Origin: Leptolyngbyaceae cyanobacterium
GTDB lineage: Bacteria > Cyanobacteriota > Cyanobacteriia > Cyanobacteriales > Aerosakkonemataceae
Direction: 5' to 3'
Length of the DNA stretch: 64,000 nt
Assembly (NCBI GenBank): GCA_036703985.1
Contig: DATNQN010000055.1
Location: 1 to 64,000, forward strand
The first letter of the stretch is position 1. Every line of letters begins with the position of its first letter. Shown here piece after piece: positions 52,089-58,123 of this stretch. The notes beneath the pieces are model-generated. The model ran no database searches. It had not been told where the DNA came from and saw nothing but the letters and a program-made list of their open reading frames with translations. Position numbers and translations under genes: made by a program.

Positions 52089-53054
52089 ATGTCCGAACAA
52101 CGCACCGATTACGATAGTCCTTGGAAAGAAGTCATCGAAGCATATTTTCCCCAATTTTTAGAATTCTTTTTTCCTTTAGCTTATGATGCGATCGATTGGA
52201 CACAACCTTATGAATTTCTAGATACAGAACTGCAACAACTCGAACCAGATGCAGAAATTGGCAAGTGTCTGGTGGATAAAGTCGCGAAGGTTTGGTTGCT
52301 GGATGGGGAGGAAGTTTGGGTATTAGTCCACGTTGAAGTGCAAGGCCGCTATGATGTGGACTTTGCCAAGCGGATGTACACTTACAATTATCGATTGTTC
52401 GATCGCCACGAGCAGCGCGTCATCAGTTTGGCAGTTTTGGCAGACGAACGGGAAAATTGGCGACCTTCCAGCTACGGTTACGAATTGGCAGGTTGTCGCG
52501 TCAGCTTAGAATTTCCCATCGCCAAACTTTTGGACTACGAAACGCAATGGGAAACTCTGGAACAAACGACCAACCCTTTTGGCATAGTGGTGATGGCGCA
52601 TTTGCGGACAAAGGCAACCCCACAAAACCCAGAGGGTCGTTTACAGTGGAAATTGAACCTGGTCAGACGATTGTACGAACGTGGTTATAGTCGAGAAGAT
52701 GTAGTGCAATTGTTTCGATTTATCGACTGGGTAATGGTTTTGCCAAAAGAATTGGCATCTAGTTTTAAACAAGTAGCGAGAAGTTACGAGGAGGCTAGTA
52801 AAATGCGTTACGTAACCAGTATTGAACGGTTGGCAAAAGAGGAAGGAAAAGAGGAAGGAATTGTTGAAACGAGTCGAAATTACATAACTCAATTCCTACA
52901 AGCGCGATTTGGAGAAGTACCAAGTTCTATTGTCGATACTTTGAATGGAATAAACGATCCGTCTGTGCTGCAAACTCTTTTTACTCGATCGATCGCAATT
53001 GGTTCTTTAGCAGAATTTCAGCAAGTTCTAGATGAGATGGCGTCTGGGGAATAA
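52089..53054 (+). CDS. Rpn-like nuclease-fold protein, cyanobacterial multi-copy family
   Basis: The 321-residue protein begins with DSPWKEVIEAYFPQFLEFFFPLAYDAIDW, typical of a cyanobacterial family related to Rpn/PD-(D/E)XK transposase-like proteins. The core HVEVQGRYDVDFAKRMYTYNYRLFDR has the E-x-Q motif of this group. Later SIERLAKEEGKEEGIVETSRNYITQFLQARFG corresponds to the Rpn-type EEGKEEG helix and C-terminal helical part. Function is unproven; Rpn proteins promote recombination and may be phage-defence nucleases. It has no partner gene nearby. Confidence 0.75.
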   Translation: MSEQRTDYDSPWKEVIEAYFPQFLEFFFPLAYDAIDWTQPYEFLDTELQQLEPDAEIGKCLVDKVAKVWLLDGEEVWVLVHVEVQGRYDVDFAKRMYTYNYRLFDRHEQRVISLAVLADERENWRPSSYGYELAGCRVSLEFPIAKLLDYETQWETLEQTTNPFGIVVMAHLRTKATPQNPEGRLQWKLNLVRRLYERGYSREDVVQLFRFIDWVMVLPKELASSFKQVARSYEEASKMRYVTSIERLAKEEGKEEGIVETSRNYITQFLQARFGEVPSSIVDTLNGINDPSVLQTLFTRSIAIGSLAEFQQVLDEMASGE

Positions 53055-53952: not shown

Positions 53953-53966
53953 GTAGCTAAATTTAC
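53953..53966 (+). promoter_or_regulatory. NtcA-type site upstream of nirB
   Basis: GTAGCTAAATTTAC matches GTA-N8-TAC exactly, the consensus of the nitrogen regulator NtcA. It lies 67 bp before the nirB ATG at 54033. A perfect -10 box at the standard distance is not seen. Nitrogen control fits the job of the downstream genes. Confidence 0.6.
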
Positions 53967-54032
53967 AAAATCTAATAGTAATTACAAATAACACTGATAA
54001 GGAGAACTAAAACATGGACGTTTTAGAAATAC

Positions 54033-56579
54033 ATGACTGCCAAAAAGAACTTAATTGTTATCGGCAACGGAATGGTAGGACACAAGTTCCTCGAATTAGC
54101 GATCGCAAAAGGCGTTACGCAGAATTGGAACGTAATTACCTTCTGTGAAGAACCGCGAGTTGCCTACGATCGCGTTAATCTCAGTAAATTCTTTGCCGGA
54201 AAAACTGCGGCAGATTTATCTTTAGTCGAACCTGGATTATATCACGAAAACGGTATTGAAATCCATATTGGCGATCGAGTAGTTTCCATTAACCGCGCCG
54301 AAAAAACTGTTACTTCAGCTAACGGTTTAACTATTTCCTACGATAAAATTGTTTTAGCGACAGGTTCATATCCCTTCGTACCGCCAATTAAAGGAAATAA
54401 AGCTACAGGTACATTTGTTTATCGGACAATCGAAGATTTAGAAGCAATATCTGCATACGCTAAAAATTGCGAAGTTGGCGTAGTAGTTGGTGGTGGATTA
54501 TTAGGATTAGAAGCAGCAAACGCACTGCAAAATCTCGGTTTAAAAACTCACGTTGTAGAATTTGCACCCCGCCTCATGCCAGTGCAAATTGATGATATCG
54601 GTGGAATGATTCTTCGCAATAAAATAGAAGAATTAGGAATATCGGTATATACCAGCAAATCTACCACCGAAATTGTCAGCGAAAATGGCAGAGTGGTAAA
54701 AATGCTATTCGCTGACGGCACTGAGTTAGAAACAGATACGATCGTCTTTTCTGCCGGAATTCGCCCCCGCGACGAACTTGCCAGACAATGCGGATTAGCG
54801 ATCGGAGAAAGAGGCGGTATTATCATCAATAATTACTGCCAAACATCAGATCCAGACATCTACGCGATCGGAGAATGCGCCCTTTACCAGAACCAAACTT
54901 ACGGCTTAGTAGCACCAGGCTACACGATGGCAGGAGTCGTAGCGGACATTTTCAACAATACCACGATCGGCCAATTTACTGGCGCGGATATGTCCACCAA
55001 ACTCAAATTATTGGGAGTGGACGTTGCCAGCTTCGGAGATGCCTTTGCCAGAACACCCGATGCTAAAGAAATTGCCATTACCGATACCGTTCAAGGCATA
55101 TACAAAAAGTTAGTAATCGACAAAAATGGCACTCATTTATTAGGTGGAATTCTCATCGGTGATGCTTCCGCTTATGGTACGCTACTGCAATTCGTCCAAA
55201 ATCAAATAACTTTACCACCCCATCCCGAAGACTTGCTAATGCCACCCCGCGAAGGCAAACCCGCAGTCGCCGCGATGGGAGTAGAAAGTCTACCCGATAC
55301 TGCCCAAATTTGCTCTTGCAATAATATCAGTAAAGCAGATATTTGTACCGCTATCCGCGAAAACAAGCTTACCGATATCGGTAGCGTCAAAAAATGTACG
55401 AAAGCCGGAACTGGCTGCGGTGGTTGTGTACCTCTGGTAACGGATATCCTAAAATCAGAGATGAAGAAAGCCGGATTAGTGGTAAAAAATCATCTCTGCG
55501 AACACTTCCCCTATTCCCGTCAAGAATTATATCATTTGTTGCGATTCCATAAAATCAAAACTTTCGATGATTTAATTCAACAACACGGTAAAGGATTGGG
55601 GTGCGAAATTTGCAAACCTGCCGTCGCTTCCATGCTGGCTTCCACTTGGAACGAACACGTTTTGACACCCACCCACGTCAGTTTGCAAGATACCAACGAT
55701 TACTATCTAGCCAACATTCAAAAAGACGGTACTTACTCAGTAGTTCCCAGAGTTCCCGGTGGAGAAATTACACCAGAAAAACTAATTGTTTTGGGAGAAG
55801 TCGCCAAAGAATTCAATCTCTATACCAAAATTACTGGCGGACAACGCATCGATTTATTTGGTGCTAGAGTAGACCAATTACCATTAATTTGGCAGCGCTT
55901 AGTAGATGCGGGATTTGAATCGGGACACGCTTACGGCAAAGCACTGCGAACTGTCAAATCTTGCGTCGGTAGTACCTGGTGTCGCTTTGGGGTGCAAGAT
56001 TCTACAAGTTTGGCGATCGAAGTAGAATTACGCTATCGTGGTTTGAGAGCGCCACACAAATTAAAATCTGCCGTCTCCGGTTGCACTCGCGAATGTGCGG
56101 AAGCACAAAGTAAAGATTTCGGAATAATTGCTACCGAAAAAGGTTGGAATTTGTACGTTTGCGGTAATGGTGGCATTAAACCGCAACACGCGCAATTACT
56201 AGCCGCAGATGTGGATAAAGAAACGCTGATTAAATATATCGATCGCTTTTTAATATTCTACATCCGCACTGCCGATCGATTGGAACGTACTGCTACTTGG
56301 TTTAACAAATTAGAAGGTGGTATCGAATATCTGAAACAAGTGATCGTTGAAGATTCCCTCGGCATTTGTGCCGAATTAGAATCACAAATGGAACACCTTG
56401 TCAAGACCTATCAATGCGAATGGAAAGCTACCATTGAAGACCCAGAAAAAGTACAGCGTTTCCGTCATTTCGTAAATTCCGACGAACCAGATCCCAGTTT
56501 ATCTTATGTAGAAGAACGAGGTCAAAAGCGTCCGGCAACGGAACAAGAAAAAGCTTTAGTTGGTAATCTAGTAGGGTAA
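54033..56579 (+). CDS. nirB: Assimilatory nitrite reductase [NAD(P)H] large subunit
   Basis: Reduces nitrite to ammonium with electrons from NAD(P)H. Domain order in 848 residues: FAD/NAD(P)H oxidoreductase (VIGNGMVGHKFLE at the start, VVGGGLLGLEAANAL near 150, IYAIGECALY), BFD-like [2Fe-2S] (CSCNN near 426 and GCGGC), then the sulfite-reductase-type repeat with siroheme/[4Fe-4S] cysteines C-x5-C near 643 and C-x3-C near 683. All cysteines are present. AAGGAGA (53999-54005) is well placed for an out-of-frame ATG at 54014, 19 bases upstream, so the real start context is odd. Most cyanobacteria use ferredoxin-dependent NirA instead. Confidence 0.93.
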   Translation: MTAKKNLIVIGNGMVGHKFLELAIAKGVTQNWNVITFCEEPRVAYDRVNLSKFFAGKTAADLSLVEPGLYHENGIEIHIGDRVVSINRAEKTVTSANGLTISYDKIVLATGSYPFVPPIKGNKATGTFVYRTIEDLEAISAYAKNCEVGVVVGGGLLGLEAANALQNLGLKTHVVEFAPRLMPVQIDDIGGMILRNKIEELGISVYTSKSTTEIVSENGRVVKMLFADGTELETDTIVFSAGIRPRDELARQCGLAIGERGGIIINNYCQTSDPDIYAIGECALYQNQTYGLVAPGYTMAGVVADIFNNTTIGQFTGADMSTKLKLLGVDVASFGDAFARTPDAKEIAITDTVQGIYKKLVIDKNGTHLLGGILIGDASAYGTLLQFVQNQITLPPHPEDLLMPPREGKPAVAAMGVESLPDTAQICSCNNISKADICTAIRENKLTDIGSVKKCTKAGTGCGGCVPLVTDILKSEMKKAGLVVKNHLCEHFPYSRQELYHLLRFHKIKTFDDLIQQHGKGLGCEICKPAVASMLASTWNEHVLTPTHVSLQDTNDYYLANIQKDGTYSVVPRVPGGEITPEKLIVLGEVAKEFNLYTKITGGQRIDLFGARVDQLPLIWQRLVDAGFESGHAYGKALRTVKSCVGSTWCRFGVQDSTSLAIEVELRYRGLRAPHKLKSAVSGCTRECAEAQSKDFGIIATEKGWNLYVCGNGGIKPQHAQLLAADVDKETLIKYIDRFLIFYIRTADRLERTATWFNKLEGGIEYLKQVIVEDSLGICAELESQMEHLVKTYQCEWKATIEDPEKVQRFRHFVNSDEPDPSLSYVEERGQKRPATEQEKALVGNLVG

Positions 56580-56597
56580 ATAATACTGGATAGACTG

Positions 56598-57242
56598 ATG
56601 ACCATTTATCTCGATTCTGCCATTATTTCCGAAGCTCAAATTGCTAAAGAATTAGGTTGGGTAAAAGGAATTACAACTAACCCAACTCTCTTAGCCAAAA
56701 CTGATTTACCAGTAGAGACGACACTGAAAGAATTAGCCAAATTAACCAACGGCCCAGTTTTTTATCAATTAATGTCATCCGAACTGGAGGAAATGATTAA
56801 AGAAGGAAAAAAAGCTTTTGAGATTATCGGTCATCAAACAGTCCTAAAAATACCCGCTACTACAATTGGCTTCCAAGCTGTTAACCATTTAACGTCAGAA
56901 ATAACTTGTTCGGTGACAGCAATTTACAGTCCAGCACAAGCAGCAGTAGCCAAAGAAGCAGGCGCAAAATATGCGATCGCATACGTTAATCGCGCTACAA
57001 AATTACTAGGTGATGGCATAGCTTTGGTGCGGGAAATGGCAACTATCTTAACAGGTAGCACTACCGAAATACTCGCCGCCAGCATCAAATCACCCGAAGA
57101 AGCTGCTGCATCCCTACAAGCTGGGGCACATCACCTCACCCTTCCCTTAAATATGTTGCAAGCGATCGCAACCCATCAATTATCCCAACAAACCGTTGAG
57201 GAATTCACCAAAAACGGTCAAGGGATTTTGCAAAATCGGTAA
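56598..57242 (+). CDS. Transaldolase/fructose-6-phosphate aldolase family protein
   Basis: The 214-residue TIM-barrel protein of the small TalC/FSA subfamily has YLDSAIISEAQIAKELGWVKGITTNPTLLAK at the N-terminus, the Schiff-base lysine in VLKIPATTIGFQAV, SVTAIYSPAQAAVAKEAGAKY and AASIKSPEEAAA. Members catalyse transaldolase or fructose-6-phosphate aldolase reactions. It starts 18 bp after nirB and lies before nirD, so it is in the middle of the nitrite reductase operon. A functional link to nitrogen assimilation is not obvious. Confidence 0.88.
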   Translation: MTIYLDSAIISEAQIAKELGWVKGITTNPTLLAKTDLPVETTLKELAKLTNGPVFYQLMSSELEEMIKEGKKAFEIIGHQTVLKIPATTIGFQAVNHLTSEITCSVTAIYSPAQAAVAKEAGAKYAIAYVNRATKLLGDGIALVREMATILTGSTTEILAASIKSPEEAAASLQAGAHHLTLPLNMLQAIATHQLSQQTVEEFTKNGQGILQNR

Positions 57243-57270
57243 CTGATGTTACCTAAAAACAAATTGCATT

Positions 57271-57308
57271 CTTATCTGCGTTCATCTGTTTTCATCTGCG
57301 GTAAAAAT
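57271..57308. repeat. TTATCTGCG-type tandem repeat
   Basis: Three units (TTATCTGCG, TTCATCTGTT, TTCATCTGCGG) ending in TAAAAAT, same family as 20797-20831. It separates the transaldolase gene from nirD. Confidence 0.7.
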
Positions 57309-57399
57309 TAACCCTTGATTCCCACAGATAATCTAAGAATATCAATTTTACACTACCGATGAAACCGAACACAATATAACAAACAAATAGGAGAATAAA

Positions 57400-57765
57400 A
57401 TGGTTCAAGCATTACCAATTCAAGAAAGTATCCTCACTTGGGTAAATATCTGTCCCCTAGCAGCTATCACACCCAATACCGGAGTTTGTGCCTTAGTTGG
57501 CGGCAAACAAATAGCAATCTTTCGAGTCGGTGATGGTAGCGAAGTCTACGCTATCAGTAACTACGATCCCTTCAGCAAAACCTACGTATTATCTAGGGGA
57601 ATTGTAGGCGATCGCAACGGCGTTCCAAAAGTCGCCTCACCCATTTACAAACAAAACTTTAACTTAGTTACCGGACAATCTTTCGATGATGAAAAAGTGA
57701 TTTTACCTACTTACAAAGTAAGGGTAGTTGAAGGAAAAGTACAAGTAGCTGGTTTTAATAATTAG
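57400..57765 (+). CDS. nirD: Nitrite reductase [NAD(P)H] small subunit
   Basis: The 121-residue protein has a Rieske-like fold without cluster ligands, as is normal for NirD: WVNICPLAAITPNTGVCALVGGKQIAIFRVGDGSEVYAISNYDPFSKTYVLSRGIVGDRNG, then VASPIYKQNFNLVTGQSFDDE. It supports NirB. An AATAGGAG sequence precedes the ATG by six bases. The order nirB - aldolase - nirD is unusual because the first and last are normally adjacent. Confidence 0.92.
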   Translation: MVQALPIQESILTWVNICPLAAITPNTGVCALVGGKQIAIFRVGDGSEVYAISNYDPFSKTYVLSRGIVGDRNGVPKVASPIYKQNFNLVTGQSFDDEKVILPTYKVRVVEGKVQVAGFNN

Positions 57766-57844: not shown

Positions 57845-58123
57845 ATGTCTGATGTAATAACTCCTGAAATAAGCGATCGCATTTGCACCCACATGAACGA
57901 AGATCATAGCGATGCCGTACTTCTCTACGCCAAAGTTTACGCTAACTTAACCGATGCTACCGCAGCAGAAATGCTTTCCATCGATCCTGAAGGCATGAAC
58001 TTATCCGCACAAGCGAATGGCGCAAAAGTACCAGTTCGCATTAAATTCGACCACGTTTTGAAAGATTCTGAAGATGCCCACCAAACTCTCATTGCAATGG
58101 TAAAACAAGCGCGATCGCATTGA
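57845..58123 (+). CDS. DUF2470 protein (HugZ C-terminal-like)
   Basis: The 92-residue single domain reads ISDRICTHMNEDHSDAVLLYAKVYANL and GMNLSAQANGAKVPVRIKFDHVLKDSEDAHQTLIAMV. DUF2470 is found alone in cyanobacteria and as the C-terminal part of HugZ-type haem-binding proteins; HMNEDH is its signature. The role of the free-standing form is not firmly known. No Shine-Dalgarno is seen; a hairpin ends just before the start. It follows nirD and could be part of that unit. Confidence 0.85.
   Translation: MSDVITPEISDRICTHMNEDHSDAVLLYAKVYANLTDATAAEMLSIDPEGMNLSAQANGAKVPVRIKFDHVLKDSEDAHQTLIAMVKQARSH

Follow-up and report, generated by a model that had tools for sequence, protein, structure and literature searches.

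A cyanobacterial nitrite reductase operon with an NtcA-type upstream site and an aldolase gene between nirB and nirD

The window, a 64,000-nucleotide stretch of contig DATNQN010000055.1 from a Leptolyngbyaceae cyanobacterium (assembly GCA_036703985.1), contains nirB and nirD, the genes of the large and small subunits of a siroheme nitrite reductase, with a gene for an aldolase of the fructose-6-phosphate aldolase (FSA)/TalC type lying between them. The reading that we favor from the sequence, at a probability of roughly 0.7, is that of an NADH nitrite reductase operon activated by NtcA and carrying an aldolase cistron that is clade-specific, under selection, and probably uncoupled from nitrite reduction. 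Thus, under nitrogen shortage, NtcA would bind the site GTAN8TAC located 5' of nirB, and NirBD would then reduce nitrite to ammonium using NADH. It would work beside two ferredoxin-dependent nitrite reductases (NirA) and be most useful where reduced ferredoxin is scarce, for example in the dark or in dense mats. The aldolase, of cyanobacterial descent according to its tree, would have entered the operon once, in the ancestor of the clade. Its spacing suggests transcription with the operon, its substitution pattern shows retention by selection, and its active-site residues suggest that it is kept most likely for its own reaction, the cleavage of fructose 6-phosphate to dihydroxyacetone and glyceraldehyde 3-phosphate; nitrite reduction would not need it. 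The elements of the locus are as follows.

53953..53966, plus strand: NtcA-type site GTAN8TAC, 80 bp 5' of the nirB start, a putative activator site
54033..56579, plus strand: nirB, siroheme NADH nitrite reductase large subunit, 848 aa, assigned by family profiles and conserved cysteines
56598..57242, plus strand: FSA/TalC-type aldolase gene between nirB and nirD, 214 aa, assigned by a Pfam match and active-site residues
57400..57765, plus strand: nirD, small subunit with a Rieske-like fold, 121 aa, with an AGGAG motif at 57389-57393

All three open reading frames (ORFs) were recovered exactly at the coordinates given by the initial annotation. Together with the family profiles they confirm its account of a nirB, a transaldolase-family gene 18 bp downstream, and a nirD in line; the gap between the aldolase gene and nirD is 157 bp. 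The further claim, that a cyanobacterium has a NirBD of the NAD(P)H type whose two subunit genes are separated by an aldolase gene, is borne out by the profile scores. NirB scores 1118 bits against TIGR02374 (cut-off 578) over model positions 1-794 of 794, i.e., at full length, and has the FAD/NAD domains and the cluster and siroheme cysteines expected of a family member. Cys427, 429, 462, and 465 of the BFD-type cluster and Cys644, 650, 684, and 688 of the siroheme/4Fe-4S site do not vary among 12 cyanobacterial sequences and also occur in NirB of Escherichia coli. NirD belongs to TIGR02378 (110.9 bits; cut-off 74.65) and falls short of the stricter NF007066 (117.7 against 135). At position 176, which we take to be the residue setting the choice between NADH and NADPH, the window's NirB has Glu, the same residue as in the NADH enzyme of E. 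coli. Judging from the family, NirBD would reduce nitrite to ammonium with NADH. The system shares with NirBD of E. coli and other bacteria the two subunits, the domain order, the cluster cysteines, and Glu176; it differs in the aldolase gene between the subunits, the NtcA-type site upstream, and the two NirA alongside. As a separate observation, a good Shine-Dalgarno motif at 54000-54004, 28 bp 5' of the nirB ATG, fits an out-of-frame ATG at 54014. This ATG would open a short ORF overlapping nirB and is conserved in relative G004 and absent from G003, G007, and G009.

The first line of evidence, on nitrogen control, is the position of the upstream site. GTAN8TAC is the consensus of the nitrogen regulator NtcA, downstream of which, by about 22 bp, a TAN3T -10 box is expected. 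The site occurs within 300 bp 5' of nirB in 27 of the 37 cyanobacterial rows of our NirB set. Once three rows with near-identical upstream DNA are set aside, it lies 60–95 bp 5' of nirB in 24 of 34 distinct genes, a fixed placement of the kind expected of NtcA promoters. At the same distance it was found upstream of 2 of 244 other ORFs of the same loci (at least 200 aa, called mechanically, with the first ATG as start), and 200 shuffles gave a mean of 0.2 and a maximum of 2. It should be noted that the 60–95 bp range was chosen after the 27/37 result had been seen; further loci from the sample of the order therefore serve as a check on new data. Among 18 such loci, six repeat upstream DNA already counted. 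The remaining 12, not thinned among themselves, include nine with the site. The site is absent from all 53 non-cyanobacterial nirB genes with at least 100 bp of upstream DNA (54 examined). The conservation of the upstream site therefore points to a role in nitrogen assimilation.

This placement bears on the proposal that NirBD serves mainly to regenerate NAD+ in anoxic fermentation, a role suggested for glacier cyanobacteria by analogy with E. coli in the part of the source considered here (PMC8941735). As the principal function such a redox sink seems unlikely here, although it is compatible with the reading we favor: the NtcA-type site points to nitrogen control, and the genome has no match to NarG, which makes a respiratory supply of nitrite less likely. 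Respiratory nitrate use was rejected on the same ground.

The initial annotation set NirBD against the ferredoxin-dependent NirA of most cyanobacteria; a search of the genome for nirA, which it had proposed, shows that NirBD does not stand in for that enzyme here. Contig C79 carries two nirA genes, together with nrt-type transport genes, a major facilitator superfamily transporter, and a narB-type molybdopterin oxidoreductase:

L008:7797-9350 (contig C79): first nirA, 517 aa
L008:15617-17602 (contig C79): second nirA, 661 aa, with a C-terminal 2Fe-2S ferredoxin domain

We assigned the names nrt and narB from gene order and family; Pfam was applied to a single nrt-type gene. Of 40 genomes compared (the window's own and 39 relatives), 12 have a full NirB and 37 have NirA (E at most 1e-100), among them all 12 with NirB. 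NirBD is thus an addition to NirA, not a replacement for it, and the idea that it operates in place of NirA was discarded. The two nirA genes flank the nrt-type genes, and NirA matches extend into the ferredoxin domain in several relatives too.

The second line of evidence concerns descent. All 37 cyanobacterial rows of a 92-row NirB tree (two of which, L045 and L075, are the same contig) fall on one side of a branch with a Shimodaira–Hasegawa-like approximate likelihood ratio (SH-aLRT) support of 99, the window lying deep inside. A more careful tree of 34 rows chosen from the 92, 29 of them cyanobacterial, gives one cyanobacterial clade with support of 100/100. Among the matches listed, the nearest outside NirB reaches 64 %, whereas full-length cyanobacterial relatives reach 81-91 %. 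The sister of the cyanobacterial clade, again among the matches listed, consists of two long-branch Polyangiaceae rows with Pseudomonadota around them, and an old entry of NirB into cyanobacteria from other bacteria is therefore likely. A recent horizontal acquisition of the operon by this lineage could be read from the patchy presence of NirB, with matches at E 1e-200 or below in 54 of the 243 genomes examined from the order (four of them partial), and from the two places that the window's family occupies on the NirB tree. Yet a single clade for the family is not rejected (approximately unbiased test, p 0.195), and the position of the window inside the one cyanobacterial clade in both trees, together with the occurrence in 54 of 243 genomes, makes recent transfer of this copy improbable; we reject it. 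Of the acquisition by transfer suggested in the initial annotation, the old entry remains likely and the recent event does not, the phylogeny having placed NirB within a cyanobacterial clade, the outcome that the annotation itself had named as speaking against its proposal. For the spread within cyanobacteria, an old gain followed by many losses and transfers among cyanobacteria both fit.

The third line of evidence concerns the aldolase. The order nirB-fsa-nirD is found in the window and in relatives G003, G004, G007, and G009, i.e., in three genera of one family; within the 11 NirB-bearing relatives examined, the aldolase gene lies between nirB and nirD in these four. Across the 37 cyanobacterial rows, the gap holds an aldolase gene in six (the five genomes and the repeat row L075), cutA in one (Oscillatoria princeps), and no same-strand ORF of at least 60 aa in 30. 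The five nir-linked aldolases form one clade (99/97) nested within the 39 cyanobacterial aldolases of the tree, which were drawn from 105 found. In comparisons of the window with the four relatives, the ratio of nonsynonymous to synonymous substitutions (dN/dS) lies at 0.045-0.082 for the aldolase, where dS reaches 1.7, at 0.060-0.071 for NirB, and at 0.093-0.128 for NirD; the aldolase value of 0.32 for the closest pair, G007-G009, comes from very few changes. The low values indicate a real gene under selection, and, with the recurrence in four relatives, rule out a spurious ORF.

As to its activity, the protein belongs to the TAL_FSA superfamily (PF00923; 112.5 against a gathering score of 27). 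Its Schiff-base lysine, Lys84, corresponds to Lys85 of E. coli FsaA, and Gln57 and Tyr129 correspond to FsaA Gln59 and Tyr131, the FSA-type rather than the transaldolase-type residues; the role of Gln59 in separating FSA from transaldolase activity is our assumption. The 18 homologues aligned with the window's protein, which come from other members of the order and include a distant one (33 %), keep all three residues. In the alignments shown, the positions of Gln57 and Tyr129 are occupied by Glu and Phe in two solved structures that bear the name transaldolase, 1vpx and 3r8r. According to the part of the source considered here, replacing Phe by Tyr in a transaldolase (F178Y) confers FSA activity (PMC4012138). 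The window's protein is thus like E. coli FsaA and the TalC-type transaldolases in family and catalytic lysine and has the FSA-type Gln and Tyr. The same genome encodes a second, larger transaldolase-family protein on contig C97.

An alternative can be built on a role of the aldolase in nitrite reduction. The initial annotation suggested that it could link nitrite reduction to NADPH from sugar phosphates, which agrees neither with Glu176, as in the E. coli NADH enzyme, nor with the chance-level co-occurrence described below. In a modified form, the aldolase would open sugar phosphates in the dark, oxidation of the resulting glyceraldehyde 3-phosphate would yield NADH for NirBD, and the gene would have been recruited for that purpose. 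Such coupling is consistent with a gene order conserved across five genomes from three genera, with purifying selection on the aldolase, with the 18 bp that separate its gene from nirB in the window, and with the FSA-type residues. We nevertheless regard it as quite unlikely. The aldolase is present in 105 of the 243 genomes of the order (E at most 1e-40) and co-occurs with the 54 NirB no more often than by chance (both in 22 genomes; Fisher p 0.76), so that a general link between aldolase and NirBD was rejected. The recurrence of the gene order, which the initial annotation had proposed to check, is limited to the window's family: the genes are adjacent in 5 of the 22 genomes having both, and of the other 17, 15 have them on separate contigs and 2 have them at a distance of megabases. 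Elsewhere the neighbors of the aldolase gene are mixed, small sets recurring in at most 7 of the 40 loci examined out of 105 (the aldolase ORF was not recovered at L183, and L176 was wrongly centered). As noted, 30 of the 37 cyanobacterial nirB rows have no same-strand ORF of at least 60 aa before nirD. An NtcA site as a mark of free-standing aldolase genes was considered and rejected: of the 14 such loci examined, 13 have none in the 300 bp 5' of the gene or at its start, and L146 alone carries any (two sites, at 218 and 5 bp).

A genome of another family, G035 (92 % complete), also bears on coupling. No full NirB was found in it; at L234:7624-7716, about 65 bp 5' of its aldolase gene, 31 codons match NirB residues 814-844 at 68 % (46.6 bits, E 5e-8, compared with 28.9 bits for the best of 30 shuffles of the 18 kb). 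cutA lies 3' of the aldolase gene, and the 18 kb contain no significant match to nirD. The G035 aldolase is sister to the five nir-linked ones (99/96). The simplest reading is that nirB-fsa was once present and that this genome later lost nirB and kept the aldolase; a transferred fragment carrying the nirB tail would also fit. Under either origin the aldolase stands without NirBD beside it, next to a decayed nirB, which argues against coupling. The lodging of the aldolase gene in the operon thus seems to be a local accident without a metabolic link. The readings weighed here are not mutually exclusive.

Several observations count against the reading of an NtcA-activated operon with an uncoupled FSA-type cistron. 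The window as a whole contains 15 GTAN8TAC sites where 8.5 are expected, so that a single site means little. Unlike a typical NtcA promoter, that of the window's nirB has no exact TAN3T box at the usual spacing (one is present in 12 of the 27 rows having the site). No site was found in 10 of the 34 distinct cyanobacterial nirB (Limnofasciculus, Hydrococcus, Cyanosarcina, Spirulina, Leptothoe, two Leptolyngbya-type, two Pseudanabaenaceae, and one metagenome-assembled genome (MAG)), and NtcA control is therefore not universal; the 34 are, moreover, related by descent and are not independent events. Unlike established FSA, the aldolase scores 171 against TIGR00875 (fructose-6-phosphate aldolase), below the curated NCBIfam cut-off of 246, and is for this reason called FSA-type. 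It also has Ser105 and Ile127 where FsaA has Leu107 and Ala129, presumably pocket residues. Finally, the retention of nirB-fsa-nirD by five genomes of three genera could mean a real link.

The other cyanobacterial gene called nirB, that of Nostoc all0605 and Synechococcus elongatus, has only the name in common with the gene described here, and we take its protein to be unrelated to siroheme NirB. In the passages considered, nirB in NtcA-related literature on cyanobacteria is, as we read it, that other gene or the nirB of Pseudomonas, and an NtcA listing of 'nirB' for PCC 7942 most likely means the former. The joint occurrence of NirA and NirBD in cyanobacteria is already published: in the passages considered, glacier cyanobacterial MAGs carry both sets (PMC8941735), and the activities that persist in biofilm Microcoleus include assimilatory nitrite reduction (NirBD) (PMC7367855). 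These passages say nothing of the nirB promoter or of an inserted gene, the features that set the present operon apart. In the openly licensed literature we found neither siroheme NirB described as controlled by NtcA nor an aldolase gene described as lying between nirB and nirD, and, as far as searched, the NtcA-type site upstream of nirB is new. In our opinion, the NtcA link merits testing most. NirBD may work in the dark; this would allow mat-forming cyanobacteria to use nitrite or nitrate at night independently of photosynthetic ferredoxin. The aldolase case suggests that a shared operon need not mean a shared pathway.

A CutA1 gene, presumably of a PII-like family, also lies in the nirB-nirD gap, as nirB-cutA-fsa-nirD in G004 (L042:8898-9206) and as nirB-cutA-nirD in Oscillatoria princeps RMCB-10 (L058:10803-11099); a CutA tree did not join the two nir-gap rows and thus does not show one origin. 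A broader scenario, which we consider very doubtful, would have early uptake of a bacterial NADH nitrite reductase followed by NtcA control and then, in one clade, by the addition of dark sugar-phosphate cleavage to the same operon. The outcome would be a night-time route from nitrite to ammonium that is fed by glycogen and does not depend on ferredoxin. Within that scenario, since cutA too is inserted between nirB and nirD in two lineages, this slot may receive genes of carbon/nitrogen balance.

Of the genes flanking the operon, the one 5' of nirB (52089-53054) encodes a 321 aa protein with no Pfam or NCBIfam match at E 0.001. The one on the 3' side is

57845..58123, plus strand: DUF2470 gene, 3' of nirD

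It is also there in the four aldolase-bearing relatives. Three g2 genomes have a DUF2470 gene with no nirB or nirD match within 1.5 kb flanks, and the gene is probably a neighbor of the operon and not a part of it.

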